A DNA stretch of 64,000 nt from Salinicoccus sp. Bachu38. Lineage in GTDB: Bacteria > Bacillota > Bacilli > Staphylococcales > Salinicoccaceae. Within the stretch, counting starts at the first letter, position 1; the number at the start of each line of letters is the position of its first letter. This document shows positions 21,972 through 47,156 of the stretch, piece after piece. The stretch spans positions 1,116,001 through 1,180,000 of the forward strand of contig NZ_CP138333.2 of the NCBI RefSeq assembly GCF_038561955.2. Direction: 5' to 3'. Position numbers and translations under genes: made by a program. The notes under the pieces were generated by a model. It did no database searches, was not told the origin of the DNA, and saw only the letters and a program-made list of their open reading frames with translations.

Positions 21972-22013
21972 CCTCCCCAAAGTTGAACCGAATCGACTTT
22001 GGGGAGGTTTTTT
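21972..22013 (+). terminator. terminator after rbsK
   Basis: A 12-bp stem (21972-21983 with 21996-22007) is followed by six T. The next 220 bases to the MFS gene hold an AGGAGGTGAG without a convincing ORF and a small GCAAGCC/GGCTT hairpin near 22178, nothing else recognisable. Confidence 0.9.
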
Positions 22014-22239
22014 ATGTGCATATAATATTTATTCAGAAAGAAAACTCGAAATCGTAGCGGTATATATACCTGAAGCAGGAGGTGAGTAATAGGTATATTG
22101 GAATTTCGGGCAGACTGTTCTAAACTATATGAAAACCATAAATTATCTGGTTATAACCTAAACAGACAATTGGATTGCAAGCCTAGCTGGCTTTCAGTTG
22201 CACTACATACTTTATAATTTCAATGGAAGTGAATCTGAT

Positions 22240-23487
22240 ATGAAAAATAAAAATAATTTCTATTATGGATGGGTGATTGTGGCGGTATGCGGACTGGCCG
22301 TCTTCTTCTCGGGACCGGGTCAGACCTACTCCAATGCTGCCTTCATTGATGAATATATAAAAGAGTTCGGGTGGAGCCGTACGGAAGTGTCGAGCCTCTA
22401 TTCATTTGCCACATTGATTGCCGGATTCGTCATGATCGGGGTGGGCAACTTCATCGACCGGTTCGGTCAGAAGAAGATGATGCTCATTGCGGCAATCGTA
22501 CTCGCTTTGGCCACATTCTTCAACAGTTTTGTGCAGAATATGTTCATGCTGGCCATCGGCTTCTTCTTCATCCGCCTTTTCGGACAGGGCAGCATGACAC
22601 TGATTCCGAATACGCTTGTCCCCCAATGGTTCATCCGCAAAAGGGGATTGGCATTCAGCCTGATGATGCTTGGGAGCTTCTCCAGTGCGATGCTGTTCCC
22701 GATCATCAATGTCTGGCTCATATCGGAATGGGGGTGGCGTTTTGCATGGCAGTTCTGGGGCTTTGCGCTGCTCTTGGCCTTTGTTCCGATCGCCTGGATA
22801 TTCATCCGGAATTCACCGGAGGAAATGGGGCTGTCACCGGATGGCCTGCATCAGAAGACAAATGACGATGAAGAAAATGAAGGAGGCGACATTTTCGTTC
22901 TTGAAGACAGCTGGACCCTAAAGGAAGCGAGCCGCACCCTGTCCTTCTGGACACTGCTCATATGCGTCGGCATACCGTCGATGGTCAATACGGGCATCAC
23001 CTTCCACATCGTCTCCATCTTCAAGGAGAATGGGCTCGAAATGGGCGCTTCCGCGATGGTTCTGAGTCTGATGGCCATGGTCGGCATTCCGATGTCCTTC
23101 GTTTCCGGGCTCATTACCGACAGGATCAGGACCAACTATATCCTGGTTATGATATTCGTCATTGAAATCATCCTCCTGCTTTTCCTAAACAACGTGACCA
23201 CCTATGCGCTCGCCATACTCTTCGGTGTCATATGGGGAATGTCGAACGGACTCGAACGGATCGGGACGAATGTTGTCTGGTCGAACTATTTTGGCAGGCG
23301 CTACGTCGGAAGCATCAACGGCGTCGGTTCTACAATGGTCGTCATCGGTTCCTCACTCGGCCCATTGCCGTTCGGTCTCGGATACGATATTTTCGACAGC
23401 TATACATTTATACTCACGCTGATGGTCGTCTTCCCCGTCATCGGCATCATCAGCGCAATGCTGTCGAAAAAACCGCAGAGAACCTGA
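22240..23487 (+). CDS. MFS carrier of the oxalate/formate antiporter-like group
   Basis: This 415-residue, twelve-helix transporter begins with FYYGWVIVAVCGLAVFFSGPGQTYSNAAFI, the typical start of the OFA/monocarboxylate-like MFS group. It has a motif A-like GNFIDRFGQKKM, VPQWFIRKRGLAFS in helix 4-5, and a charged central loop of about 35 residues. The group carries mono- or dicarboxylates and related anions; the substrate here is unknown. The start is taken as ATG 22240, about 9 bases after GGAAGTGA, although an in-frame ATG exists at 22198. It borders the AT-rich island on its GC-normal side. Confidence 0.88.
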   Translation: MKNKNNFYYGWVIVAVCGLAVFFSGPGQTYSNAAFIDEYIKEFGWSRTEVSSLYSFATLIAGFVMIGVGNFIDRFGQKKMMLIAAIVLALATFFNSFVQNMFMLAIGFFFIRLFGQGSMTLIPNTLVPQWFIRKRGLAFSLMMLGSFSSAMLFPIINVWLISEWGWRFAWQFWGFALLLAFVPIAWIFIRNSPEEMGLSPDGLHQKTNDDEENEGGDIFVLEDSWTLKEASRTLSFWTLLICVGIPSMVNTGITFHIVSIFKENGLEMGASAMVLSLMAMVGIPMSFVSGLITDRIRTNYILVMIFVIEIILLLFLNNVTTYALAILFGVIWGMSNGLERIGTNVVWSNYFGRRYVGSINGVGSTMVVIGSSLGPLPFGLGYDIFDSYTFILTLMVVFPVIGIISAMLSKKPQRT

Positions 23488-23538
23488 CAACTATTATGTG
23501 GCGTGACATGTTAAAGTGGAGAGAAATGGAAATAATAA

Positions 23539-23572
23539 AAGAACTGGCTTAATTTCATTAAGGCCAGTTCTT
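23539..23572. terminator. terminator between the MFS gene and the island
   Basis: An inverted repeat AAGAACTGGC / GCCAGTTCTT with a partly paired interior lies between two convergent genes and can act in both directions. Confidence 0.75.
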
Positions 23573-23633
23573 CTAGATAATTTTTTACTATTCAACTGAA
23601 CAATCGAAAGTAACATCAACCATTGTTATATTA

Positions 23634-24509
23634 TTATAAATTGTTGTCTTTTGTTAGACCGAATCTTTCATTTAAAAGTTTCATCTCCTCTATATTCTTA
23701 AATATTGTTGGTCCTTCTTGTGTGGTTAATAAATAGTTTATTATATCTATTATGAATATTGTCCCTATGTGAGAATTAGAAAAAGAAAGTGAATCTACGT
23801 ACGTAGCTAATAAAGTATGAGCATTTTTACTAATATTAGTAAAATGATTATTTGTGATTGCTATCTGTTTGACATTTCTTTCTTTAACATAGTTACTAAA
23901 GTCTTCCATTCTTTTTGAAATTGATGGTATAGAAATAAATATAACCAAATCTTCTTCGCTCAAGCCTCTTATATAATCAAGTGCTTCTATAGTTTCTCCG
24001 TTTATAAGAATTGACTTTGAAAAAATTTCATTGATATGACCGTTTAGAATTTCTGCTGGACCATAGGAATTTTTTCTTGCAAGGATTAATATTTTATTTG
24101 CATTTAATATATCATTTTTAAAATTTATAAATGTTTCAAGATTATTATTATACATAATACTATTTAAATTTCTAATTTCGCTATTATAAACATTCCGTAT
24201 TTCGTCATTTATTTCAAGAAAGTCACCTTCAACATTATTGGGTTCTGTTTCTTTTCCAGTTGTAAAAGATAAAGACAACCTATTTTTTGCCATTTTTTGT
24301 ATTTCTTTTTGTAACTCTGGGAAGCCAGTAAATCCAAGATCTTGAGAATATCTTACTACTACTGATTCACTAACGTTTGCCTCTATTGATACCTTCCTAG
24401 CAGTTGTGAATGCTGCTTCTAACCAATTGTCAAGGATATAGTAAGCAACCCTCTTTTTCGCCTCGCTCACTTCGTTTATTGAATTTTGAATTTTTTCAAA
24501 AAGTGTCAT
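23634..24509 (-). CDS. RpiR/MurR-family transcriptional regulator
   Basis: This 291-residue regulator has an N-terminal HTH of the RpiR type (about 1-77), with the telltale segment ANVSESVVVRYSQDLGFTGFPELQKEI, followed by a SIS-like ligand-binding domain (about 105-250). RpiR regulators usually sense phosphosugars or amino-sugar phosphates, but in this locus the ligand may differ. The gene lies 54 bases downstream of the opine-dehydrogenase-family gene on the same strand, so they are probably one transcript. It is very AT-rich, unlike the flanking genes. It is the obvious candidate to bind the 10-bp inverted repeat in the divergent promoter region at 25645-25677. Confidence 0.88.
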   Translation of the reverse strand: MTLFEKIQNSINEVSEAKKRVAYYILDNWLEAAFTTARKVSIEANVSESVVVRYSQDLGFTGFPELQKEIQKMAKNRLSLSFTTGKETEPNNVEGDFLEINDEIRNVYNSEIRNLNSIMYNNNLETFINFKNDILNANKILILARKNSYGPAEILNGHINEIFSKSILINGETIEALDYIRGLSEEDLVIFISIPSISKRMEDFSNYVKERNVKQIAITNNHFTNISKNAHTLLATYVDSLSFSNSHIGTIFIIDIINYLLTTQEGPTIFKNIEEMKLLNERFGLTKDNNL

Positions 24510-24563
24510 GGTTATCTCCCGTCAAATTCTTGATATAGTCACTAATTAAAGTTTTAACATAAC

Positions 24564-25601
24564 TTAATCGATATACATAGACAAATCCTTTAAGTTTCTT
24601 CCTTCATTATAAAAATCTTTGTTATATATGTCAGAAGCAAACTTTATTAAGGAATTTATTATGGGAACCTCTATCTTTTTTTCTTTAGCAAGGTGAGAGA
24701 TTGGAACTAAACTCATTGGTACATCTTCGAGTACATATCTAGTCATTACTGTAGAAGGAGCTGTAATTGAAGAATAACTTTTATTTTTTTGTAAACTATC
24801 ATATAGATTTGAACTCTTAACACCATATTTAGTATTTAGCCACTCTAGAGCGTTTGGAACCTCTAGGTTATATGCTTTAGCTACTTTTATCCTTTCTTGA
24901 TCAATCTTTTCTATATAAGTTGAAATTAATGGGGTAATACCATCTAAGTAAAATTTAAATTCTTCTTTGTTTTCTATTCTGTTAATGTTGAAAATTAAAG
25001 GAGCGGGATGAAAGACAGCACCCATATTATTCAAACTTGTTTCCAGTATGTTTTCGAAAGGTTTAAAATAAGGGATTGCTTGATTTAAAGAACTAGTTAC
25101 TTCGACTGATTTATCTGAAGGGATTGTAGCTAGTCCTACATAGTTTTTCTTGCCGTAAACTTTAACTTTAGTACCATTTATTTTCCTACAAGAGAATAGT
25201 AATGTCTCAGTTTCCCCTATAATATTATTTTTATTGAACTTATTAAAAATATTTTTAAATATTATAGCACCACCAGTTCTCCCTGGATGTAAAATAACTA
25301 TTTGCTTCTTCTTAATAATACTAGCCAATTCATAAGCCAAAGTTTCATGAATAAATGCAGGTGTGACAACAAAGATAAAGTCAGCATACTGGATTGACTC
25401 ATTTAGATTATCTGTTATCACGTCTAATTGCACAGAGTAATTCTCTTTGTCTTCATTGAATTCTATCTTATTATTGTTTGTTTGAATGGGTTCAATGATT
25501 TCAGTGAATTTATCAAATAAGTTAACGTTATAACCCTGTTTAGATAAAAATGCTGCAAAAGCTAGTCCTCCGTTACCTGCTCCAATAATTGTAAACCTCA
25601 T
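24564..25601 (-). CDS. NAD(P)-dependent opine (octopine/nopaline) dehydrogenase-family enzyme
   Basis: This 345-residue protein opens with a Rossmann motif (RFTIIGAGNGGLAFA, Gly7-Gly12) and has the family's second-domain hallmark NNMGAVFHPAPLIFN with His198, the region that holds the catalytic His and substrate contacts in opine dehydrogenases. HPGRTGGA in the middle also fits. These enzymes reversibly join or split an amino acid and a keto acid through a secondary amine. RBS AAGGGGGG is well placed. It is divergent from an SbnB-like dehydrogenase and a GltS-like carrier and shares their AT-rich composition. Substrate is unknown; synthesis and breakdown are both possible. It is not the staphylopine synthase CntM locus, since no cntK/cntL-like genes are present. 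Confidence 0.85.
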   Translation of the reverse strand: MRFTIIGAGNGGLAFAAFLSKQGYNVNLFDKFTEIIEPIQTNNNKIEFNEDKENYSVQLDVITDNLNESIQYADFIFVVTPAFIHETLAYELASIIKKKQIVILHPGRTGGAIIFKNIFNKFNKNNIIGETETLLFSCRKINGTKVKVYGKKNYVGLATIPSDKSVEVTSSLNQAIPYFKPFENILETSLNNMGAVFHPAPLIFNINRIENKEEFKFYLDGITPLISTYIEKIDQERIKVAKAYNLEVPNALEWLNTKYGVKSSNLYDSLQKNKSYSSITAPSTVMTRYVLEDVPMSLVPISHLAKEKKIEVPIINSLIKFASDIYNKDFYNEGRNLKDLSMYID

Positions 25602-25644
25602 ATAAAATCCCCCTTTGGTTGTTAATTAGCACAAGAGTACATTA

Positions 25645-25677
25645 ATTTATCTAACTATTCAATATTTTTAGATAAAT
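25645..25677. promoter_or_regulatory. candidate operator in the divergent opine-type promoter region
   Basis: ATTTATCTAA (25645-25654) and TTAGATAAAT (25668-25677) are perfect inverted 10-bp copies with a 13-bp spacer. The repeat lies between the divergent genes, just upstream of the plus-strand -35 and over the likely minus-strand promoter, a natural site for the RpiR-type regulator. Confidence 0.6.
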
Positions 25678-25690
25678 AAAAGAATAAATG

Positions 25691-25719
25691 TTGCTTAGCA
25701 AGAAATATTGTGGTAAATT
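25691..25719 (+). promoter_or_regulatory. promoter of the SbnB-like / GltS-like unit
   Basis: TTGCTT (25691-25696) and TAAATT (25714-25719) are separated by 17 bases and lie 30 bases before the start codon. Confidence 0.55.
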
Positions 25720-25748
25720 GATTTTAATAAAGAAAAGGGGGATGCAAT

Positions 25749-26759
25749 GTGGTAAAGGATTTAATTTTTTTAAACCAAAAAGACATTAAGAGTTGTGGTG
25801 GAAATGACATGGGGTTTGCCATTGAAACTATGGAAAAAGTTTTCTCGCTACATGAGAGAAAAGAGTATGTTTTACCGAATAAAACTGTTTTAAGATGGGG
25901 GGATTTGGCATCTGAAAGTTCACTCGGCAGAGTAAACTCAATGCCGGCATCAATCGGAGGTAATTTTAATGCTATTGGTATAAAATGGATTGGAAGCGCT
26001 CCCAAAAATCCAGATGACTTTAACTTGCCTAGAGCTTCAGCAGTAATAGTGCTAAATGACTATGAAACGCTTTTTCCTAAAGCTATTCTCGATGGCATGT
26101 TAATTAGTGCTATGAGAACCGGAGCAAATTCAGGGGTGGCAGCAAAATATCTTGCTAAGAAAAACTCAAAAACTTTAGGTTTAGTCGGTGCAGGTGCTCA
26201 AAATAAAACACAATTATTAGCTATGAAAGAAGTATTGAAGGATTTAGAAGAAGTGAAAATCACAGATTTGAACAGAGGAAGAGCTATTCAATTTTCTGAA
26301 GAGATGTCGACTGAAGTCAACCTTCCTATCAAAGTAGTGGATACAGCCGAAGAAGCTGTTAGAGGATCAGATGTGTTCATTACAGCAACAGTAACAAAAG
26401 AACCCATTATTAAAAAGGAATGGATAGAAAAAGGGATGTTATATCTTCACGTAGGTAGCCATGAAACACATTTTGGTGTAATCGATTTAGCTGATAAAGT
26501 TGTTGTCGATGATTGGGAGGAACTCAAGCATAGGGGGGTTGAGTCTTTACCAATAATGTACAATGAGGGAAAGTTTGATGAAAGTAATATTCACGCTGAA
26601 TTAGGCCAAATAGTCAATGGTGTGAAAAGCGCTAGAGAAAATGATGATGAATTTATTTACTTTAACAGTGTTGGTATGGGGATACAAGATGTAGCTTTAG
26701 CTTCTGAAATTTATAATAATGCAGTTAGGCTTAGAAAAGGGGAGCAAATTACAATGTGA
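25749..26759 (+). CDS. ornithine cyclodeaminase/mu-crystallin family dehydrogenase, SbnB-like
   Basis: This 336-residue enzyme has the family features: GIKWIGS with Lys79, MRTGANSGVAAKYLA (about 122-136), the nucleotide-binding GLVGAGAQNKTQ (145-154), and VVVDDWEE. Several stretches (LNQKDI..GGN, PASIGGN, GIKWIGS..NP, HAELGQIV, NDDEFI) recall SbnB more than true ornithine cyclodeaminase. SbnB oxidises N-(2-amino-2-carboxyethyl)-glutamate to diaminopropionate plus 2-oxoglutarate, itself an opine-dehydrogenase-like reaction. No SbnA partner is encoded here. The start is GTG 25749, 7 bases after AAGGGGG. It is AT-rich and followed by a GltS-like gene. The SbnB comparison is from memory and needs alignment. 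Confidence 0.8.
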   Translation: MVKDLIFLNQKDIKSCGGNDMGFAIETMEKVFSLHERKEYVLPNKTVLRWGDLASESSLGRVNSMPASIGGNFNAIGIKWIGSAPKNPDDFNLPRASAVIVLNDYETLFPKAILDGMLISAMRTGANSGVAAKYLAKKNSKTLGLVGAGAQNKTQLLAMKEVLKDLEEVKITDLNRGRAIQFSEEMSTEVNLPIKVVDTAEEAVRGSDVFITATVTKEPIIKKEWIEKGMLYLHVGSHETHFGVIDLADKVVVDDWEELKHRGVESLPIMYNEGKFDESNIHAELGQIVNGVKSARENDDEFIYFNSVGMGIQDVALASEIYNNAVRLRKGEQITM

Positions 26760-26785
26760 TTTGCATAAACAAAGGGGGATCATTA

Positions 26786-28180
26786 ATGTTACCTAACGAA
26801 GTGATCGATTCTGGAACTTTAAACAATTTATTTTTTTATATAATGATGATGGGACTTCTCTTGGTATTGGCTGTATTTATTAGATTAAAATTCAAAATTT
26901 TCAAGAAGTACTTTATCCCAGCGGCTCTAATAGCAGGTGTTATTGGATTGGGATTAGGACCATATGGACTTAACTTATTCTCTGAAGCTATGGTTTCAAC
27001 TTGGGGTAGCTTGGCTGGTATACTCATTTCTATTGTTTTTGCGCCTATGCTACTAGGAATGAGAAAAAGCGATAGCAAAGGCAAATCAAAATTAATGTTA
27101 AGACACTTAGTGTATAGCTATACAGCAAGTCTGCTTCAAATAGGGGTGCCATTAGTCGTAGCTGCTTTAGTAATAGTGCCACTTTTTGATTTGAATGAAA
27201 TGTTTGGGACTATTATAGAAGTAGGATGGGCAGGTGGTCATGGAACTGCAGCAGGAATGATGGAAGTTTATACAGACCTTGGCTGGGCAGAAGGTGGTTC
27301 ACTGGCTGTTACTACTGCAACGATAGCTATAGTATTTGGAATAATCTCCGGTGTAATCATGATTAATCACGGGGTCAAGAAGGGGTACACTTCTGTAGTA
27401 AAGAGTACTGAAGAAATTAAAGGTGAAAATAAAGACGATCTAATTAACATTGAAAACCAAAAACTCAATTCAAAAGGCACTTTAAATCCTGACATGGTAG
27501 AAGGTTATGCTTTTCATCTAGGGTTGATCTCCATAGCAGTTATTATCGGTTGGTTTATACAGCAATTTGTCACTTTGTTTGTCACAGGCATACCACTATT
27601 TCCGTTGGCGATGATTGGAGGGCTAATAGTAAATGCTATAATTATGAGGACGAAATATAGTGTCACAATTGATAAGCATACTTTAAATCGTATACAAGGA
27701 TTGGCACTAGATTTCTTAGTTTTAGGAGCAGTAGCTTCTATACAAATACCGGTAGTTATTAACTTTGCTTTACCATTGTTAATTATTACAGCAGTTTCTA
27801 TTGCCCTTTTACTATGGTATTTTTATTACCTGGGTCCAAAATTCTTCCCTGAAGAATGGTTTGAAAACGCAATAGTTCATTATGGAGCATATAGCGGTGT
27901 AACAGCTATTGGTTTAATGCTGCTAAGAACCGCTGATCCTGAAATGAAGACTGAAGCAGGGCAAGGGTTCGCGTTGAGAGCACCATTTTACAGCCCTATT
28001 TTAGGTGGAGGACTAATAACTTCTATTATCCCAGTTCTAGTAGTGAACAGTGGCGCATTATTAATTGGATTGGGAGCAATAGGGATAGTGATTATACTAC
28101 TCATTATTAGTCACTTTACAGGCTTAATAAATATAATGCCTAGCAGAAGTGTTAAACTAAGTAGGGCAAGAAGTAATTAA
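26786..28180 (+). CDS. sodium/glutamate symporter (GltS) family transporter
   Basis: This 464-residue carrier has about ten to twelve helices and the GltS hallmark GWAGGHGTAAGMMEV near residues 143-157. A basic hydrophilic loop with many Lys/Glu (about 193-232) separates two halves. GltS proteins import glutamate with sodium; this distant member could take glutamate or a glutamate-containing compound. The start is ATG 26786 after AAGGGGG; the earlier in-frame ATG (26756) overlaps the previous stop and lacks an RBS. It ends the plus-strand unit of the island. Its location beside two dehydrogenases that can act on N-carboxyalkyl amino acids suggests the substrate is such a conjugate or its product. 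Confidence 0.85.
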   Translation: MLPNEVIDSGTLNNLFFYIMMMGLLLVLAVFIRLKFKIFKKYFIPAALIAGVIGLGLGPYGLNLFSEAMVSTWGSLAGILISIVFAPMLLGMRKSDSKGKSKLMLRHLVYSYTASLLQIGVPLVVAALVIVPLFDLNEMFGTIIEVGWAGGHGTAAGMMEVYTDLGWAEGGSLAVTTATIAIVFGIISGVIMINHGVKKGYTSVVKSTEEIKGENKDDLINIENQKLNSKGTLNPDMVEGYAFHLGLISIAVIIGWFIQQFVTLFVTGIPLFPLAMIGGLIVNAIIMRTKYSVTIDKHTLNRIQGLALDFLVLGAVASIQIPVVINFALPLLIITAVSIALLLWYFYYLGPKFFPEEWFENAIVHYGAYSGVTAIGLMLLRTADPEMKTEAGQGFALRAPFYSPILGGGLITSIIPVLVVNSGALLIGLGAIGIVIILLIISHFTGLINIMPSRSVKLSRARSN

Positions 28181-28230
28181 AGAACCAATATTTATATGTT
28201 TAAGATAAAATGGATATTAAGACAATATTA

Positions 28231-28285
28231 AGCTCCCTTTTAGGTGCACAGGTAATTCTGTTAGCCTTAGGGAGTTTTGTTTTTT
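28231..28285 (+). terminator. terminator after the GltS-like gene
   Basis: CTCCCT...AGG pairs with CCT.AGGGAG around a long loop, followed by TTTTGTTTTT. The loop is large, so strength is uncertain. Confidence 0.6.
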
Positions 28286-28620
28286 AGAAATAATTTTAAC
28301 TAAAAAATAGTGATGATATTCTGCTATACCTTTTATCGGTCATATAAAATATATGTTTCTATTATTTACTGATAGTCTTATTTAATAAGAGTTCATTGGA
28401 GTTTGTTTAATAATATTCTAGTGTTTCATTATATTATGGTATATAGAAAGGGGGGTGTTCCATAAACAAGGAGAAGTTCCTACTGAATTTTTGATTCTCA
28501 TTCTATTATAAATCATAATTTTTAACTATCTGACTTAGTTTTACATAAGTTTTGTATAAATTAACATGTGATATACTGGTTTTTATATTTTAAATCACCA
28601 AACGGAAGAAGAGATGCCGC
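28286..28620. other. AT-rich intergenic tail of the island, no gene seen
   Basis: About 335 bases of very AT-rich sequence separate the island from the Bcr-type pump. An 18-codon GTG frame after AAAGGGGG near 28452 is the only coding-like signal and is not recognised. It may be the eroded edge of the transferred segment. No repeat or tRNA marking an insertion boundary was found. Confidence 0.4.
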
Positions 28621-29826
28621 ATGAACTTGACTCAGGAAGAAAAAACCCGGAAGTTCTGGATTGTCGTACTGCTTGGTCTGCTGACTGCAATCGGCCCATT
28701 GTCGATGGACATGTATCTGCCGGCACTGCCGATTGTTGCAACCGACCTCGACACCACTGCATCGCTCGCCCAGCTCAGCCTGACGGCTTGCCTGATCGGT
28801 CTTGCAGCCGGTCAGCTCATCTTTGGGCCGCTCAGCGACATCATGGGGCGGAAACGACCGCTTCTGTATACACTGGCCATATATGCGGTGGTCTCAGCAC
28901 TGTGTGCCTTCACCGGCAACATCTGGGTGTTCGTGCTGCTTCGCTTCATCCAGGGGTTCACAGGCGCAGCAGGCATCGTCATCGCCCGGGCGGCGGCAAG
29001 GGACATGTACATGGGAAAAGAGTTGACGAAGGCATTTGCACTGTTGGCGCTGGTCAATGGGGCGGCACCGATACTTGCCCCAATTTCAGGCGGCATGATC
29101 CTCAGTTTCGGTTCATGGCCGGTCGTCTTCCTGGTCATCGCAGCCATCGGGGTGCTCCTGCTCCTGTCGGTTTCCTTCATGTTCAAGGAGACACTGGAGG
29201 AATCGAACCGTTCAGAGGGCAGCATGTTTGCCGTCGTCAAAACGTTCGGCGACCTCTTCAAAGACAAGGTTTTCATGGGCATCGCCTTCACCCAGGCGCT
29301 GATCATGTCCGCCATGTTCGCCTACATAGCTGGTTCGCCTTTTGTCCTGCAGAACATCTATGAAGTTTCTCCGCAGCAGTTCTCGCTCATATTCGCGATG
29401 AATGGTCTCGGTATCATCGTGGCGGCCCAGGTTGCTGGAAGACTGTCCTCATCGGTGGATGAAGTGAGGATACTGCTGGTGGGCGTGTCGATGTCCGTCA
29501 TCGGCAGCCTGCTGCTCATATTGGTCGTCGTGCTGGAGCTGTCCCTCCTGCCGATGCTCATCGCTCTGCTACTGGTCGTATCCAGTGTCGGCATGGTGTC
29601 GACGACTGCCTTCTCGCTCGGAATGCAGAACCAGAAGAAATCCGCCGGCAGCGCTTCAGCGTTCCTTGGTCTGCTGCCATTCATCGGCGGTGCACTCGTA
29701 TCTCCGCTAGTTGGTATGGCAGGGGACGAGGCGGCATGGCCCATGGGGCTCGTCATCATCCTGTGCAGTATTGGGGCACTGCTCATATTCCTTGGCTTTG
29801 TGAGGCATCGGCCGGTTGCCGACTGA
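28621..29826 (+). CDS. Bcr/CflA-family drug efflux MFS transporter
   Basis: This 401-residue, twelve-helix pump has the DHA1 Bcr/CflA start LGLLTAIGPLSMDMYLPALPIVATDL, motif A GQLIFGPLSDIMGRKRPLL, and motif C-like LVNGAAPILAPISGGMIL. Members expel drugs such as bicyclomycin or export small metabolites like cysteine; the substrate here is unknown. GAAGAGA precedes the ATG. The composition returns to the GC-rich host norm here, which sets the right edge of the AT-rich island. Confidence 0.92.
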   Translation: MNLTQEEKTRKFWIVVLLGLLTAIGPLSMDMYLPALPIVATDLDTTASLAQLSLTACLIGLAAGQLIFGPLSDIMGRKRPLLYTLAIYAVVSALCAFTGNIWVFVLLRFIQGFTGAAGIVIARAAARDMYMGKELTKAFALLALVNGAAPILAPISGGMILSFGSWPVVFLVIAAIGVLLLLSVSFMFKETLEESNRSEGSMFAVVKTFGDLFKDKVFMGIAFTQALIMSAMFAYIAGSPFVLQNIYEVSPQQFSLIFAMNGLGIIVAAQVAGRLSSSVDEVRILLVGVSMSVIGSLLLILVVVLELSLLPMLIALLLVVSSVGMVSTTAFSLGMQNQKKSAGSASAFLGLLPFIGGALVSPLVGMAGDEAAWPMGLVIILCSIGALLIFLGFVRHRPVAD

Positions 29827-29904
29827 CTTTTGCACTTCAGATGATTATGGAGTTCCCAATACGATATGTGCATTACCTGTTAATGAAGCACACTATATTA
29901 TAGT

Positions 29905-42308: not shown

Positions 42309-42506
42309 TCATTTTGAATGCACACTTTTGTGATCGATCATCGGGACCAGTATTGCGCAACCCAATGCAGTGAAGTAGGGCAGATACTTGATGCCGACCG
42401 GCTGATTGAAAACCATCATGCCGAGTACACCAATCATACTGGAGAGTGCAATTCCAAGTATGAAACCGCCGACCACACCGACGATCATAGCCAGAAATAT
42501 TCTCAT
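42309..42506 (-). CDS. small two-helix membrane protein (DUF5957-like)
   Basis: This 65-residue protein has two hydrophobic helices (about 4-31 and 42-58) around the conserved-looking FNQPVGIKYLPYF. It resembles small Firmicute membrane proteins annotated DUF5957, a recall of moderate certainty. Its start overlaps the end of the DUF6220 gene by 4 bases (ATGA), so the two are coupled. It lies upstream of the two-component genes. Confidence 0.6.
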   Translation of the reverse strand: MRIFLAMIVGVVGGFILGIALSSMIGVLGMMVFNQPVGIKYLPYFTALGCAILVPMIDHKSVHSK

Positions 42507-42910
42507 AACATTTCCTCCTTTTCATTTCCAAATACCAATTTGAAGTTTTTCACCACAATCCAAACCGAGAGCATGGACAGCAGAATGGCAAAGACTGTGT
42601 GAAGGGCGTTAATGCCATCGATTCCAATGTTCGCAGTAAAGTACATCAGAAATACCGAGACAAGAATCCCAAACAGCTGCCAATACACCCACCTCGGCAT
42701 GGAGCCGACAAATGCAAATATCAGCATGATGATTGGCAGATTGAATCCAAACATATGAACAAACATCATGTGGTTCATCCAGTGTACCGGATCGTCAAAG
42801 ACCGCCATCCCCGCGATGAAAACTTGAACCGTGACACAGAGTGCGAAAAGAACTGCCAGTAATAGATATATACCTCTCGCGGTCCGAACCCTCAAACTAT
42901 TCTTTTTCAT
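42503..42910 (-). CDS. DUF6220-like four-helix membrane protein
   Basis: This 135-residue protein has four predicted helices, with RTARGIYLLLAVLFALCVTVQVFIAGMAVF first, then a HWMNHMMFVHMFGFNLPIIMLIFA segment rich in His and Met, and a LHTVFAILLSMLSVWIVVK end. The pattern fits DUF6220; function unknown, though conserved membrane His residues raise the possibility of heme or metal contact. The start is ATG 42910 after AGGAG; the TTG six bases earlier is not used. Tandem 11-bp repeats upstream point to control by an OmpR-type regulator. Confidence 0.7.
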   Translation of the reverse strand: MKKNSLRVRTARGIYLLLAVLFALCVTVQVFIAGMAVFDDPVHWMNHMMFVHMFGFNLPIIMLIFAFVGSMPRWVYWQLFGILVSVFLMYFTANIGIDGINALHTVFAILLSMLSVWIVVKNFKLVFGNEKEEML

Positions 42911-42975
42911 AATCAAAACTCCTGTTCTTTTGGAGATGGCTCCATCTTACATAGGAGAGATGAAATATCCCTTAC

Positions 42976-42997
42976 GTAATTCTTAAGTAATTCTTAA
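42976..42997. promoter_or_regulatory. tandem 11-bp direct repeats upstream of the DUF6220 operon
   Basis: GTAATTCTTAA occurs twice in perfect tandem (42976-42986 and 42987-42997), with a degenerate third copy at 42965-42975. Eleven-base spacing is typical of OmpR-family operators, and the matching regulator is encoded about 1.9 kb away. Confidence 0.6.
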
Positions 42998-43165
42998 ATC
43001 GCAAAGTGTGTAATTTTTGGAATGATCAGTGCAGAAATGATGAATCTGCGGTCCTATGGAATCAGAAAAAGAATAAATGCGGAGGAAAGGCTGAGTTTTG
43101 TCGTTTTTGGATTTTTACAACAAAAATCATCGGAGGTAATATATTTGTAGTAGAGGAGGCGGAAT

Positions 43166-43882
43166 ATGATCTGGATCATATTGTTGGGTGGTATATGCGC
43201 ATCATTCATGTATGCAGTTACAGAAGCAAAGCATTTCAGTATTCTATACAGAAGAAGTAGATGTGATAGTTGTCATTATACTTTGAAATGGTCGGAATTG
43301 ATTCCAGTCGTCAGTTTTATACTGCTCAGGGGTAAATGTTCATATTGTAGGAGCAAGATTGATATAGGTGCTTTCATATGCGAGGTTTTATTGATTTTCT
43401 TTTATCTTCTTCCTTTATTTTATGACTTGTCACTTAAGGATCTCACCTTGTATTATCTTATGGTCACTATACTTATACCGATTGCTCTGAATGACTTCAA
43501 GACTTTTACGATTCCAAACCATATGAGCTTACTGTTTCTCTTTACTGGGCTTTTTTTGACGGATTTATCATATATCGAACCATTTAAAGATGTAGTCATC
43601 ATCATTCTTCTCCACTTGTTCTATTTCCTGTTTTCAGACTCTGTAGGTTATGGAGATATCAAGTTGTTCACAGTAATCACATTGGTTACGCCGGTCAACT
43701 TTTTCGTCTATACAATTCTTCTCACCTATATAATTGGAGGATTATTTATCATCATTCTGCATTTCTACAGGAGTGATATGCCACGCAAAATTCCACTTGT
43801 CCCCTTTATAACAAACGCACTCATCCTATCGTTCATCCTTTATGAAGAAATAAATACAATCTATTTCGGAGGGTTCCTATGA
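43166..43882 (+). CDS. comC: prepilin peptidase (A24 family, ComC)
   Basis: This 238-residue membrane aspartyl protease processes the pilin-like proteins of the competence pseudopilus. It has the cytosolic zinc-type CxxC pairs (CDSC near residue 33 and CSYC near 58) and the two catalytic Asp motifs: ALNDFKTFTIPNH and GYGDIKLF. AGAGGAGG precedes the ATG. The stop overlaps radC (ATGA), the usual staphylococcal order comC-radC. The gene is more AT-rich than most neighbours. Confidence 0.94.
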   Translation: MIWIILLGGICASFMYAVTEAKHFSILYRRSRCDSCHYTLKWSELIPVVSFILLRGKCSYCRSKIDIGAFICEVLLIFFYLLPLFYDLSLKDLTLYYLMVTILIPIALNDFKTFTIPNHMSLLFLFTGLFLTDLSYIEPFKDVVIIILLHLFYFLFSDSVGYGDIKLFTVITLVTPVNFFVYTILLTYIIGGLFIIILHFYRSDMPRKIPLVPFITNALILSFILYEEINTIYFGGFL

Positions 43883-44562
43883 CACTATTAATCAAAGAAA
43901 TGCATGACTCTGATAAACCTCGGGAAAGGTTGATGAACTACGGGCCCGACAAACTTACCAATCAGGAACTGTTAAGCATTATCATCAATACAGGCAATAG
44001 GGAAGAATCGAGTATTACAGTGGCCAATAGAATCATAAAAGACATGAAGACCATACGTGAACTCAGAGGACTGACCTATCAGGAATTGATCAGTGTAAAG
44101 GGTATAGGGGAAGCCAAGGCCATAACCATCCTTGCTGTAATTGAACTTGCAATCAGAATGCACACCCACTCACTTGAAGAGGATATTTTCATCAAGAGCC
44201 CGGATGATGTAAGTGATCTTCTGATGGAGAAGATGAGGTATTTTCAGCAGGAGCATTTCGTAGTTCTATATCTATCCACCAAAAATATGGTGATACACCA
44301 GGAAACGATGTTCAAAGGTTCATTGAACACCTCCATCGTTCATCCAAGAGAAGTGTACAAGGAAGCTGTGAAAAGAAGCGCAGCAGCAATCATATGTGTC
44401 CATAATCATCCAAGTGGAGATCCTTCGCCTTCCAGGGAGGATATAGAAGTAACAAGGAGGCTTCATGAATGTGGAGAGATGATAGGGGTCGATTTTCTTG
44501 ATCACATCATTATTGGTTCTGGAAAATATATCAGCTTAAAAGAAATGAATTTCATTAAATAA
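43879..44562 (+). CDS. radC: RadC family protein
   Basis: This 227-residue protein has an N-terminal helix-hairpin-helix region (LTYQELISVKGIGEAKAITI, about 60-80) and a C-terminal JAB/MPN-like domain with the metal motif HNHPSGDPSPSREDIEVT and a Glu near FKGSLN. Despite its name, a direct DNA-repair role is not established. It overlaps comC by 4 bases. In staphylococci mreC normally follows; here about 9.5 kb intervenes. Confidence 0.95.
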   Translation: MTLLIKEMHDSDKPRERLMNYGPDKLTNQELLSIIINTGNREESSITVANRIIKDMKTIRELRGLTYQELISVKGIGEAKAITILAVIELAIRMHTHSLEEDIFIKSPDDVSDLLMEKMRYFQQEHFVVLYLSTKNMVIHQETMFKGSLNTSIVHPREVYKEAVKRSAAAIICVHNHPSGDPSPSREDIEVTRRLHECGEMIGVDFLDHIIIGSGKYISLKEMNFIK

Positions 44563-44573
44563 GGAGTGGGTAT

Positions 44574-44936
44574 ATGGGATTGGATATGTATTTATATCTC
44601 CAGGAACGTGAGACCAATGAAGTCATCGAATATAGTTATTATAGGAAGTTTAACGCCCTGCAGGGTTACTTTGTAAAAAATTTCAGCCTTGGAAACTGTG
44701 ATAGGGTCAAATTATCGGTAGAGATGGTAAATGAGCTATACTTGCTGCTTAATGAGGTTCGTCATTCTCCTGAAAAATCGCATCTTCTTATGCCTGTATT
44801 TCCCGGTCCATTCTTTGGTTCGTATGAGTATGACCGGATATACCACAACTATATCAACCAGGCGGCAGGCGATTTCTATCATGCCAAGTTCATAGACTAT
44901 GGGAAATACGATCTTTTCTTCACTTCTGATTGGTAA
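44574..44936 (+). CDS. phage-type hypothetical protein (MGLDMYL start)
   Basis: This 120-residue soluble protein starts MGLDMYLYLQERE, a start seen in many phage and mobile-element hypothetical proteins, and continues with aromatic-rich segments (YSYYRKFNALQGYF, PGPFFGSYEYDRIYHNYI). No enzyme motif is visible. It lies 11 bases after radC behind AAGGAG and is probably read from the radC transcript. It marks the start of the segment that separates radC from mreC. Confidence 0.65.
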   Translation: MGLDMYLYLQERETNEVIEYSYYRKFNALQGYFVKNFSLGNCDRVKLSVEMVNELYLLLNEVRHSPEKSHLLMPVFPGPFFGSYEYDRIYHNYINQAAGDFYHAKFIDYGKYDLFFTSDW

Positions 44937-44951
44937 AGTGCGATTTTAAAC

Positions 44952-44968
44952 ATTACAAATCGATTACA
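44952..44968 (-). promoter_or_regulatory. WalR-type box upstream of RNA copy 1
   Basis: On the minus strand TGTAAT-N5-TGTAAT fits the WalR (YycF) consensus TGTWAH-N5-TGTWAH exactly. It ends 24 bases before the -35 of the RNA promoter. A nearby TTACAAAT-N7-ATTTGTAA inverted repeat (44964-44986) shares half of it, so another regulator is possible. Confidence 0.45.
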
Positions 44969-44992
44969 AATCTGTAATATTTGTAAATTCTG

Positions 44993-45021
44993 TTGAAAAC
45001 CGAAATAGTTTAGGATATTAT
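44993..45021 (+). promoter_or_regulatory. promoter of RNA copy 1
   Basis: TTGAAA (44993-44998) and TATTAT (45016-45021) are 17 bases apart. A TATAAA three bases further gives 20-base spacing, the same as in RNA copy 2. Confidence 0.6.
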
Positions 45022-45027
45022 AAATAT

Positions 45028-45203
45028 GACTTAAAAATGACATAACAAGGAGGACAACCTGATGATTAATGTAATTCTTTCATCCATAAACCAATTTCAT
45101 AGTGTTGCCTCCTTTGATAGATTCTAATCATTCCGATTGGATCTAGATATCATATATATTATTTCTTATCTGTTGTAGGGAGGCTGCCGCCTCTCTATTT
45201 TTA
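45028..45203 (+). ncRNA. structured RNA element, copy 1
   Basis: This is a novel-looking transcript of about 175 nt with its own promoter and an intrinsic terminator (stem AGGGAGGC/GCCTCTCT, then T run). Its last 60 bases (45143-45202) are nearly identical to 53915-53976. A hairpin just before the conserved block pairs TAGATTC.TAATC (45117 on) with GATTGGATCTA; copy 2 has a different but equally paired hairpin there. Both copies share GACATAACAAG near the 5' end. It also contains a mini-ORF with a sequestered RBS. Exact ends are inferred. Confidence 0.65.
45062..45127 (+). CDS. 21-residue peptide ORF inside RNA copy 1, RBS sequestered
   Basis: ATG 45062 lies 8 bases after a perfect AAGGAGG (45047-45053), and the frame encodes 21 residues with a hydrophobic start (MINVILSSI). 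The RBS region 45047-45058 is complementary to 45104-45114 inside the same ORF, giving 11 base pairs with one bulge. Translation would therefore need the helix to open, as in regulated leader peptides or type I toxin mRNAs. The peptide matches nothing I know. Confidence 0.45.
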   Translation: MINVILSSINQFHSVASFDRF

Positions 45204-45214
45204 TGCCTGAAACC

Positions 45215-45245
45215 AGTGTGCACAAATAGAGTGCGCACTTTTTTT
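45215..45245 (+). terminator. second terminator after RNA copy 1
   Basis: A 9-bp stem (45215-45223 with 45231-45239, one G-T pair) is followed by seven T. It lies 12 bases after the RNA's own terminator, making a tandem stop before the ABC exporter leader. Confidence 0.8.
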
Positions 45246-45352
45246 GACGTCATTTTTAAGAAAATTCCGTAAAAAAGGGGCTGATGATGTGGTATTTTCA
45301 ATTTGCACAAGACAGTTTGATGCTATGACACCAACGAATTACACAACAAGGA

Positions 45353-45414
45353 AAACCAGAGGGGACCATCGACTGTAATTGTGGATTGACTCCCTGGTTT
45401 CAGACAGGGTGGTG
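45353..45414 (+). promoter_or_regulatory. leader with two mutually exclusive hairpins over the ABC exporter RBS
   Basis: CCCTG (45392-45396) can pair with CAGGG (45405-45409), which overlaps the RBS of the exporter gene. The same CCCTGGTTT (45392-45400) can instead pair with AAACCAGAGGG upstream (45353-45363), freeing the RBS. This is the layout of a translational switch; the ligand or trigger is unknown. Confidence 0.35.
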
Positions 45415-45419
45415 ATATC

Positions 45420-47156
45420 ATGTTTGATTTTCTATGGAAATTGAAATGGTATTTTGGAGAGAATAAATGGAAGTATACGACAATCGTACTTGTACTGCTT
45501 GTGGCGAATATCCTTGAAATCATTCCACCGCAGCTGATCGGCTGGACGATCGATTTCATTGCCGGTGGGGAAATGACGGAGCGCCTGATGTGGCAGTTGG
45601 TCGGTGTGTTCATCGTGGTGACGGTACTGACTTACGTGGCGACATACCTATGGTCCTATCTGCTCTTCGACGGGGCGGTGAAGATCGAAAGCATCATCAG
45701 GATGAAGCTGATGCGGAAGTTCCTGCTCATGTCTCCGAGCTTCTATGAACGCAATAGGACGGGTGACCTGATGGCGAAGGCGACGAACGACCTGAAGATC
45801 GTGAACCAGGCTGCGGGCATGGGACTTTTGACCTTGGTGGATGCGACGACTTTCATGCTGACGATCATACTGGTCATGGGGTTCACGATTTCCTGGCAGC
45901 TGACTTTCTTTGCACTGCTGCCGCTGCCGATTCTGGCGATTGTCGAGCAGCGGCTCGGCAAAAGGATCAATGCGGCGCATACGGAGAGTCAGGAGGCATT
46001 TGGATCGATGAATGATTCGGTGCTCGAAATCGTGGAAGGGGTGAAACTCACCCGGAGCTATGTGCAGGAGGAGGCCGAGAACAGGCGGTTCAGGGGGATG
46101 ACGGACGACTATCTGGAGAAGTTCATAAAGGTGGAGCGTCTTGATGCACTATTCCAGCCGCTGACGATCATCGTCACGACATTCAGCTTCATGGTGGCGT
46201 TCGGCTATGGCGCGGTGCTTGCGAACCGCGGCCTCATATCTATCGGAGACATCGTGGCCTTCAATGTCTATCTGAACATGCTGATATGGCCGATGTTTGC
46301 CGTCGGCATGCTGTTCAATGTCATGCAGCGGGGGAATGCCTCGCTGACGCGCATCAACAGTGTTCTGGATACGGAGGATGATGTGAATGATCAAGGCGTG
46401 CATGGAATCCAGAAATCAAATATGGATTTCGACCACGTTTCGTTCCAGTATCCGCTGAGTAGAAGAACGAACCTGGATGATGTATCGTTCACGCTCAGAA
46501 GCGGCCAGACGCTCGGTATCGTGGGGAGGACGGGCAGCGGCAAATCAACGCTCATCAAACAGTTTCTGAAGTTCTACCCGGGAGGTGAGGGCAGCCTGGT
46601 CATTGATGGCCGGCCGATATCGGAACTTGACCGGAGTACGCTGCGGGAGAAGGTGGGGTATGTCTCCCAGGAGAACATCCTCTTCTCAAGGACGGTGCGG
46701 GAGAACATACTGTTCGGAAATCCTGAGGCGACGGAGGCACAGCTTGAGAGCGCCATCCGTCTCAGTGCACTCGACCAGGACCTCAAGCGGATGCCTCACG
46801 GGCTCGATACGATGGTCGGTGAAAAGGGCATTGCCCTGAGCGGCGGACAGAAACAGCGGATCTCCATTGCACGGAGTCTGATCCGGGATCCGGATATACT
46901 GATTCTGGATGACGCCCTCAGTGCTGTGGATGCAAAAACGGAAAAGCGGATCATCGACAGCATCCGTAAGAATCGGACGGATAGGACGACCATCATCGTG
47001 ACACACAGGCTGTCCGCCATCCAACATGCCGATCTGATCGTCGTCCTGGATGATGGACGGATCATCGAGACGGGCACGCACGAGACGCTTTCGGTCTCAG
47101 GCGGCTGGTACAGCCGGCAGAATGAATACTATCTGAAGGGCGGTGCATCGACATGA
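45420..47156 (+). CDS. heterodimeric ABC exporter, degenerate-site subunit (second pair)
   Basis: This 578-residue half-exporter is built like the protein at 6708: six helices, then an NBD with Walker A GRTGSGKSTLI, signature LSGGQKQR, Walker B LILDDALSAVDAKTE (Asp instead of the catalytic Glu) and H-loop VTHRLSA. The opening WKLKWYFGENKWKYT and IIPPQLIGWTIDFI stretches resemble the first pair, so the two operons are paralogous. ATG 45420 follows AGGGTGGTGA, which sits in a possible RNA switch. Its end overlaps the partner gene by 4 bases. Substrate unknown. Confidence 0.92.
   Translation: MFDFLWKLKWYFGENKWKYTTIVLVLLVANILEIIPPQLIGWTIDFIAGGEMTERLMWQLVGVFIVVTVLTYVATYLWSYLLFDGAVKIESIIRMKLMRKFLLMSPSFYERNRTGDLMAKATNDLKIVNQAAGMGLLTLVDATTFMLTIILVMGFTISWQLTFFALLPLPILAIVEQRLGKRINAAHTESQEAFGSMNDSVLEIVEGVKLTRSYVQEEAENRRFRGMTDDYLEKFIKVERLDALFQPLTIIVTTFSFMVAFGYGAVLANRGLISIGDIVAFNVYLNMLIWPMFAVGMLFNVMQRGNASLTRINSVLDTEDDVNDQGVHGIQKSNMDFDHVSFQYPLSRRTNLDDVSFTLRSGQTLGIVGRTGSGKSTLIKQFLKFYPGGEGSLVIDGRPISELDRSTLREKVGYVSQENILFSRTVRENILFGNPEATEAQLESAIRLSALDQDLKRMPHGLDTMVGEKGIALSGGQKQRISIARSLIRDPDILILDDALSAVDAKTEKRIIDSIRKNRTDRTTIIVTHRLSAIQHADLIVVLDDGRIIETGTHETLSVSGGWYSRQNEYYLKGGAST

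Follow-up and report, generated by a model that had tools for sequence, protein, structure and literature searches.

An AT-rich four-gene island of Salinicoccus sp. Bachu38 and its possible role in the catabolism of opine-type compounds

In a 64,000-nucleotide stretch of the Salinicoccus sp. Bachu38 genome (contig NZ_CP138333.2, positions 1,116,001 to 1,180,000; the window), we analysed an AT-rich block of four genes at approximately 23,511-28,605, which encode an RpiR-family regulator, an opine dehydrogenase (ODH), a dehydrogenase related to SbnB and a GltS-type carrier. Our tentative reading, to which we give slightly less than even credence, is that this island is a horizontally acquired cassette that would take up an opine-type compound, one half of it most likely glutamate-derived, and cleave it by oxidation. 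Relatives of the SbnB-like gene recur in other bacteria with exchanged partner enzymes and carriers, and at one such locus an opine-oxidase-like pair stands where the ODH stands elsewhere; this exchange is the strongest hint that the reaction would be cleavage rather than synthesis. Loci and genomes are cited below by L and G numbers.

The island and its four genes

The initial annotation had described a four-gene island of deviant composition that is organized in two divergent units. Both points were borne out: two genes lie on the minus and two on the plus strand, and their GC contents of 0.281, 0.300, 0.366 and 0.368 (28-37%) compare with 0.489 (49%) for the whole window. The difference was larger still at third codon positions (0.20, 0.23, 0.28 and 0.28, vs 0.58-0.71 in four neighbour genes); the 60-base lines quoted earlier understate the contrast. 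Other AT-rich stretches (1-kb windows below 40% GC) occur near 34.75 kb and at 42.5-45.5 kb, the island being the deepest and longest. The open reading frames (ORFs) of the stretch at 42501-45500 (36-40% GC) look, by eye, prepilin-peptidase-like and RadC-like.

To place the ends of the block, window positions 22000-29900 were compared by blastn with the sister species G027 and G028. Similarity stopped at 23,510 (L122) or 23,490 (L123) and restarted at 28,606. Both sisters carry major facilitator superfamily (MFS) genes flanking the same spot, whose proteins are 94-95% identical to those of the window, and between them ∼3.1 kb of unlike DNA encoding an arginyl-tRNA synthetase paralogue, a bPH_4 protein and a 142-aa protein without a Pfam match. 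In a third species (G030), only a relative of the 142-aa protein adjoins the downstream gene, and the upstream MFS gene has no close match. Since the sisters have other genes between these MFS genes, the spot is variable, and the block was either inserted there or took the place of other DNA. The same comparison marks a place where DNA has been inserted or replaced more than once, and the island probably arrived recently, by horizontal transfer. The Bcr/CflA-type MFS gene adjoining the island belongs to the host backbone, being present in six of 12 genus genomes and next to the same spot in the sisters. Within that spot of the sisters (L122:3769-6606 and the matching L123 region), the arginyl-tRNA synthetase paralogue is itself AT-rich. 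No tRNA genes were found in the 64-kb window. A search of plasmids did not reveal a source: ODH relatives were all below 60% identity (23-29% for the 20 of 286 records listed), and so were those of the SbnB-like protein (40 of 1000 records listed; top 39.9%).

All four family assignments of the initial annotation held, each with Pfam scores above the gathering score. The ODH matched Octopine_DH (PF02317) with 150.2 bits vs a gathering score of 30, in addition to a Rossmann domain, and gave a profile match to the solved protein 1bg6 with an E value of 3.8e-95. Its residues H198 and D293 are invariant in a seven-sequence alignment and correspond to H202 and D297 of 1bg6; we take them to be the catalytic His/Asp pair of PF02317 enzymes. 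The SbnB-like protein scored 223 bits for OCD_Mu_crystall (PF02423), the regulator 53.1 bits for HTH_6 and 39.7 bits for SIS, and the carrier 58.8 bits for Glt_symporter (PF03616), the gathering score of which is 26. The carrier ORF spans 26756-28180, with ATG 26786, preceded by AAAGGGGGA, as the likelier start. Positions are collected in Table 1.

Table 1. Features of the island (window coordinates)
Feature	Position	Strand	Basis
Opine (octopine/nopaline-type) dehydrogenase, PF02317, 345 aa	24564..25601	-	Pfam, 1bg6 profile match, alignments
SbnB-like PF02423 (ornithine cyclodeaminase/mu-crystallin) dehydrogenase, 336 aa	25749..26759	+	Pfam, NCBIfam, trees, model
GltS-type (PF03616) carrier, ∼464 aa from ATG 26786	26786..28180	+	Pfam; 72% identical in J. 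halotolerans; relatives in seven other loci
RpiR-family regulator, HTH_6 + SIS, 291 aa	23634..24509	-	Pfam; 62% identical homologue at same place in J. halotolerans
Whole inserted AT-rich block	23511..28605		Non-homology limits vs sister species G027 and G028 (blastn), sister gene maps, GC profile
Divergent intergenic region, likely seat of promoters and candidate RpiR operator	25602..25748		Sequence reading
Possible intrinsic terminator after carrier: inverted repeat CTCCCT...AGGGAG, then T run	28228..28285	+	By eye

The SbnB-like dehydrogenase and its neighbours

To determine the contexts of this dehydrogenase in other bacteria, we scanned the species-genome collection with the SbnB-like alignment and two short peptide patterns. 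Of 457 relatives, we took the best 80, compared them with the window and partner genes by BLAST and tblastn, applied Pfam to selected neighbours, and split the loci by identity rank to the window protein into 31 near loci (L032-L062; 39-70% identity) and 49 further loci (L063-L111; ≤ 40%). Counts in the two groups were compared with Fisher tests, which ignore kinship among loci. An SbnA-type gene lay within 300 bases in 46 of the 49 further loci, which represent SbnB and its kin, and in none of the near ones; PF02317 genes stood beside the SbnB-like gene in nine near loci (L032, L040, L041, L043, L044, L045, L049 and L058 by tblastn; L050 by ORF and Pfam) and in no further locus. GltS genes were present in seven near loci (L032, L034, L035, L036, L038, L042 and L058), where they adjoin the SbnB-like gene and encode proteins 42-72% identical to the window carrier, and RpiR-family genes occurred within 6 kb in at least nine (L032, L034-L038, L048, L058 and L060). 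Around the 49 further loci, tblastn within 5 kb gave no ODH, GltS, TAXI, DctM, RpiR, HyuA, oxidase pair or MR.

Partners of the SbnB-like gene were exchanged between near loci. Specifically, TAXI and DctM genes of a TAXI-TRAP carrier replace GltS in L037, L040, L041, L043 and L044, with a more distant pair in L033; L037 carries an FAD opine-oxidase-like pair (Fer2_BFD/SO_alpha_A3 and DAO) where the ODH stands elsewhere; hydantoinase A and B occupy the place of the ODH in L033 and L039; and the Chloroflexota loci have DAO and an enolase-superfamily (MR_MLE) protein alongside (L050 by Pfam; L049 and L052 by tblastn). Judged by these neighbourhoods, the SbnB-like dehydrogenase is a hub with exchangeable partner enzymes and carriers.

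The complete set also recurs. In Jeotgalicoccus halotolerans DSM 17274 (G004, locus L032), order and strands of the four genes are those of the window, with identities of 62, 48, 70 and 72% for RpiR, ODH, SbnB-like protein and GltS respectively; thus, the ODH diverges faster (48%) than the other three (62-72%). ORFs upstream of this cassette (L022:1-6876) look phage-like by eye. Pyramidobacter, of a different phylum, has the four genes rearranged, as PF02423 gene-GltS-ODH behind an RpiR gene. The four-gene neighbourhood that the initial annotation had proposed to look for is therefore found elsewhere, and the two units do co-occur outside the window. Recurrence is rare: a close SbnB-like relative (71%) was found in one of 32 other genomes of the host family, that of J. 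halotolerans, SbnB-like proteins at E 1e-70 or better in four of 398 Bacilli genomes and at 1e-80 in three of 398 genomes of the phylum sample, and the ODH at E 1e-50 or better in two of 157 genomes of the host order, the own genome being counted in the last three cases. A search of species-genome contigs with the window ODH alone gave no relatives. Chance neighbourhood was rejected on the recurrence of partners among the 31 near loci.

In an ODH tree (all trees here were made by a quick method), seven of eight ODHs from SbnB-like loci, i.e. the window and seven loci, fell into one eight-row clade with a support of 93. The eighth row of the clade was L176, which has a B12/GlmL context without an SbnB-like neighbour; L045 lay outside on a long branch and 1bg6 elsewhere, and L049 and L050 were left out. 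The host has a second PF02317-type gene, in the region L125:6285-10385, downstream of an Amidohydro_3 protein and, by eye, with a possible Na:alanine-type symporter on its other side; an Amidohydro_3 protein and an Na:Ala symporter also lie near the ODH of L043.

The label SbnB-like, given by the initial annotation, proved right in the sense of kinship. SbnB was the best solved relative in a profile search (286 bits), and a predicted model of the window protein (pLDDT 94) had SbnB 4mp6 as its best fold match (TM 0.93, 36% identity), with P2CR and alanine dehydrogenase (AlaDH) closely behind and ornithine cyclodeaminase (OCD) lower, at 22% identity. A five-residue loop of AlaDH and P2CR is missing in SbnB and in the aligned SbnB-like loci, one residue in L057 excepted. 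Two annotated OCDs read GGDCPGKTEL there, with variants in EutC, BhcD and AlaDH, and the window protein reads GSH-----ETHF; the Asp of the OCD motif is Asp228 of the P. putida enzyme. Three residues mark the SbnB-like proteins with and without an adjoining SbnA: W256 is found in all 79 (33 without and 46 with SbnA), R95 in 32 of the 33 and all 46, and R61 in 28 of the 33 and all 46. None of the three is carried by six outsiders (the two OCDs, EutC, BhcD, AlaDH and P2CR). R61 or R95 may hold a second carboxylate of the substrate.

In a tree of the near loci (30 of 31) and part of the further ones (17 of 49), a branch with a support of 99 parted the six outsiders (OCD, EutC and BhcD sequences being taken from named plasmids) from SbnB, the window protein and its relatives. 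Because its match contains 12 stops (a frameshift), L059 was used neither in trees nor in residue counts. The SbnB-like gene thus does not group with plain cyclodeaminases, a grouping that the initial annotation had named as fatal to its proposal; with the missing GGDCPGKTEL loop and the lower fold match, this led us to reject a plain OCD. A true SbnB was rejected as well: the window protein scores 277.8 bits for the NCBIfam SbnB model (TIGR03944), below its cut-off of 326.9, and has no SbnA neighbour. Instead, it belongs to a nine-row Bacilli clade (support 100 in two quick trees), and SbnB proper is nested among SbnA-free rows. Nearest to SbnB proper were L048 and L055, both without SbnA, and a Cytobacillus plasmid protein, and L066 and L108, also without SbnA, lay inside it. 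In an earlier midpoint-rooted tree with AlaDH and P2CR as the only outsiders, both had joined, by long branches, the half that includes the window protein.

The Cytobacillus oceanisediminis plasmid NZ_CP062791.1 (L233:1902-6554) carries, in a row, an RpiR-type gene and genes for a 39.9% identical SbnB-like protein, proline dehydrogenase and P5C dehydrogenase. Such a context supports catabolism as the predicted role of these proteins; it is as favourable to the serial alternative discussed below as to our preferred reading.

Proposed pathway and alternatives

In our preferred reading, the substrate would be a secondary amine in which the nitrogen of an amino acid is bonded to an organic acid at its alpha-carbon. 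Imported by the GltS-type carrier, it would be oxidised at its C-N bond to an imine by two NAD(P)-dependent dehydrogenases, and hydrolysis of the imine would release an amino acid and a 2-oxo acid. Both divergent units would be switched on by the RpiR regulator. PF02317 enzymes act on a D (R) centre formed by reductive condensation, and SbnB acts on an L-glutamate centre. The two dehydrogenases would thus probably differ in stereochemistry or in the side of the molecule that they attack, such that both C-N bonds, or both diastereomers, could be opened. An opine oxidase together with ocd is known opine catabolism of Ti plasmids (PMC4575208). Nopaline, succinamopine and leucinopine are reported to cyclise under acidic conditions (PMC4192606); since some opines of this type form lactams in acid, the hydantoinase partners would fit as well, and could open lactams.

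The initial annotation had linked the substrate to glutamate. This link is strengthened by the alternative TAXI-TRAP carrier, because characterised TAXI receptors bind glutamate, and TAXI genes coupled to gltS have been described as well (PMC11574862; PMC12344293); a glutamate-containing conjugate as the cargo is still conjecture. In VcGluP, Y45, Q93, E125 and M201 contact the amino group of glutamate, Q93 most strongly, its loss costing 990-fold in affinity (PMC11574862). Five of the six TAXI receptors at our loci keep Y45, S75, E125, G156 and G203 of VcGluP, and have Ala for Q93, Val or Ile/Gly for Y200/M201 and Gly for S40; most contact positions are altered in the sixth (L033, with 30% identity to the reference TAXI). 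The opened amine side of these predicted pockets fits an N-substituted glutamate.

The proposal of the initial annotation is supported in part, by the kinship with SbnB and the co-occurrence of the two units. Several observations weigh against this reading or against a tight pairing of the two dehydrogenases. No adjoining ODH was found at 22 of the 31 near SbnB-like loci, and in the nine-row Bacilli clade of the window the ODH is confined to the window and J. halotolerans, as far as contigs reach. Of 26 genomes in the class to which G864 belongs, 24 have the ODH (one being G864 itself with its paired copy), as do, at 1e-90, seven of 398 Bacilli genomes, where the six non-own copies have SSF, YfcC-like or TAXI carriers. 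None of 20 further ODH places opened (14 from the class of G864, six from Bacilli) had an SbnB-like gene within the stretch, and eight of the 14 had a ∼550-aa protein of one kind alongside. The carrier's match to GltS is distant: no NCBIfam model and no PDB structure matched, and its predicted structure had a pLDDT of 43. GltS relatives at 1e-60 occur in 20 of 398 Bacilli genomes; the copies with E < 1e-200 (G000, G254 and G470) adjoin an SbnB-like gene. Sixteen of 18 further GltS places opened (of 26) had no such gene, the exceptions being L223 (GltS 33-34%; its SbnB-like neighbour 32%) and L228, where another G470 copy adjoins an SbnB-like fragment; this last copy is 47% identical to the window GltS, and the other 17 are ≤ 34%. 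The TAXI argument concerns relatives, as none of the window's four genes encodes a TAXI protein. Moreover, of the amino-group contacts Y45, Q93, E125 and M201 only Q93 and M201 change, and Q93 is also missing from both TAXI proteins tested from other contexts (one keeps S75, E125, G156 and Y200 without Y45; the other loses S75, E125 and G156). Loss of Q93 would equally fit a ligand without an amine, e.g. 2-oxoglutarate. The Cytobacillus context points to an amino-acid product, not necessarily to an opine. Finally, SIS domains of RpiR regulators usually bind sugar phosphates.

The ODH places outside the pairing have features of their own. The eight with the ∼550-aa protein are L165-L168, L173, L174, L184 and L176 (G551, G757, G803, G844, G686, G627, G592 and G864). 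Both proteins scanned (L165 and L176) have an N-terminal B12-binding domain in Pfam, and the other six were recognised by similar start and length. The ODH gene overlaps that of the ∼550-aa protein by 1-4 bases in seven of the 14 places opened, and in L176 a GlmL-type mutase accessory gene (over the NCBIfam cut-off) lies between the two. The Bacilli units L178-L182 combine a PF02317-type enzyme with an SSF carrier (L178 and L179) or a YfcC-like DcuC carrier (L180 by test, L181 and L182 from their resemblance) and a GntR-type regulator (by test in L178 alone), and are perhaps further opine-type catabolic units. In G470 the GltS and SbnB-like pair occurs several times over, in complete or broken form (L024, L025, L026 and L228).

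How the work is divided could also differ from our proposal. The PF02317 enzyme alone might split the opine, with the SbnB-like enzyme acting downstream on the freed amino acid as a dehydrogenase or deaminase. Such a serial pathway would resemble the octopine and nopaline regions, which combine an opine oxidase with an ornithine cyclodeaminase (PMC4575208), and it would accommodate both an SbnB-like gene that is constant while the upstream enzyme varies (ODH, FAD oxidase-like pair or hydantoinase) and the 40% identical Cytobacillus relative beside proline and P5C dehydrogenases. However, in lacking the loop and in carrying R61/R95/W256 the window protein follows SbnB and departs from cyclodeaminases, EutC, BhcD and AlaDH, and Pfam revealed no arginase-like gene among the four of the island; we consider the serial scheme unlikely. 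That the island serves to take up and degrade some other acidic compound of the glutamate type, e.g. a cyclic or N-acylated glutamate, with the ODH as an accessory, appears quite improbable to us: ODH recurs beside the SbnB-like dehydrogenase in several lineages, even though five of seven GltS-bearing loci lack it (L034, L035, L036, L038 and L042), the partners include hydantoinase/oxoprolinase, and a gene near L034 resembles Asp/Glu/hydantoin racemases (30.6 bits, just under the gathering score of 31).

Both dehydrogenases might instead work reductively and make an opine-like osmolyte or metal chelator. PF02317 enzymes are synthases in plants and molluscs, and SbnB serves siderophore synthesis; yet the four genes include no SbnA-type, synthetase or exporter gene, the adjoining Bcr/CflA-type gene is host backbone, the carriers are of importer families and an oxidase-like pair can replace the ODH, which makes biosynthesis very improbable. 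Epimerisation is another conceivable role for a locus with two dehydrogenases whose expected stereochemistries are opposite: one would open one diastereomer and the other close the opposite one while NAD(H) is recycled. This we find scarcely credible, as replacement by an FAD oxidase-like pair or hydantoinase speaks for cleavage.

Extending our preferred reading, SbnB might be one branch of a larger dehydrogenase family, the others, for which we found no earlier link to a pathway, being hubs of a modular system that eats N-substituted glutamates, both opines and their lactams, in Bacillota, Synergistota, Chloroflexota and beyond. As partner enzymes these hubs would take NAD opine dehydrogenases, flavin opine oxidases or ATP-dependent lactamases interchangeably, and as carriers GltS or a TAXI-TRAP with an opened amine pocket. 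We regard this generalization as possible but doubtful; if true, it would mean that the environment has a pool of such compounds beyond plant galls. For the island itself, opine catabolism would mean that a compact NAD-based cassette, island-borne in cocci of the Jeotgalicoccus family and present in other phyla, makes N-carboxyalkyl amino acids a wider nutrient class, and would give a function to SbnB relatives now annotated as 'ornithine cyclodeaminase family protein'.

Comparison with known systems

To our knowledge, opine catabolism is known mainly from crown-gall bacteria. We rate the island as an NAD-based variant of it; the open-access literature that we searched (subscription papers lay outside) gave no earlier description of this gene set.

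Among single proteins, the closest solved PF02317 relative of the ODH is the N-(1-D-carboxylethyl)-L-norvaline dehydrogenase of Arthrobacter (1bg6), which shares its His/Asp pair but lies outside the clade of seven of eight tested ODHs from SbnB-like loci. SbnB of the staphyloferrin B pathway and kin such as CmnK have in common with the window protein the Pfam family, the best fold and profile match, the loop loss and R61/R95/W256. The window protein differs in standing on a separate tree branch, in scoring below the NCBIfam cut-off and in having, like the proteins of all 31 near loci, no SbnA beside it, and the island's four genes include no siderophore or antibiotic genes. The carriers are of the same two families as the GltS, TAXI-GltS and TAXI-TRAP glutamate transporters, which are linked to each other in published work (PMC12344293; PMC11574862), but the island GltS is distant and the TAXI partners of its relatives have an altered amine pocket.

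As a whole, the island is comparable with the octopine and nopaline regions (occ, noc) of Ti plasmids and with chromosomal flavin opine dehydrogenases (PMC4575208), which likewise combine a transporter, an enzyme that splits a secondary amine and a PF02423 gene. The A and B subunits of the flavin opine oxidase/dehydrogenase are absent among the four island genes by Pfam, and a similar pair is found in L037. Unlike the Ti regions, the island has a PF02317 protein as its splitting enzyme, an SbnB-like PF02423 protein and an RpiR regulator, and no arginase; their ABC carrier is replaced by GltS in the island and TAXI-TRAP in relatives, and such loci were found mostly in Bacillota.

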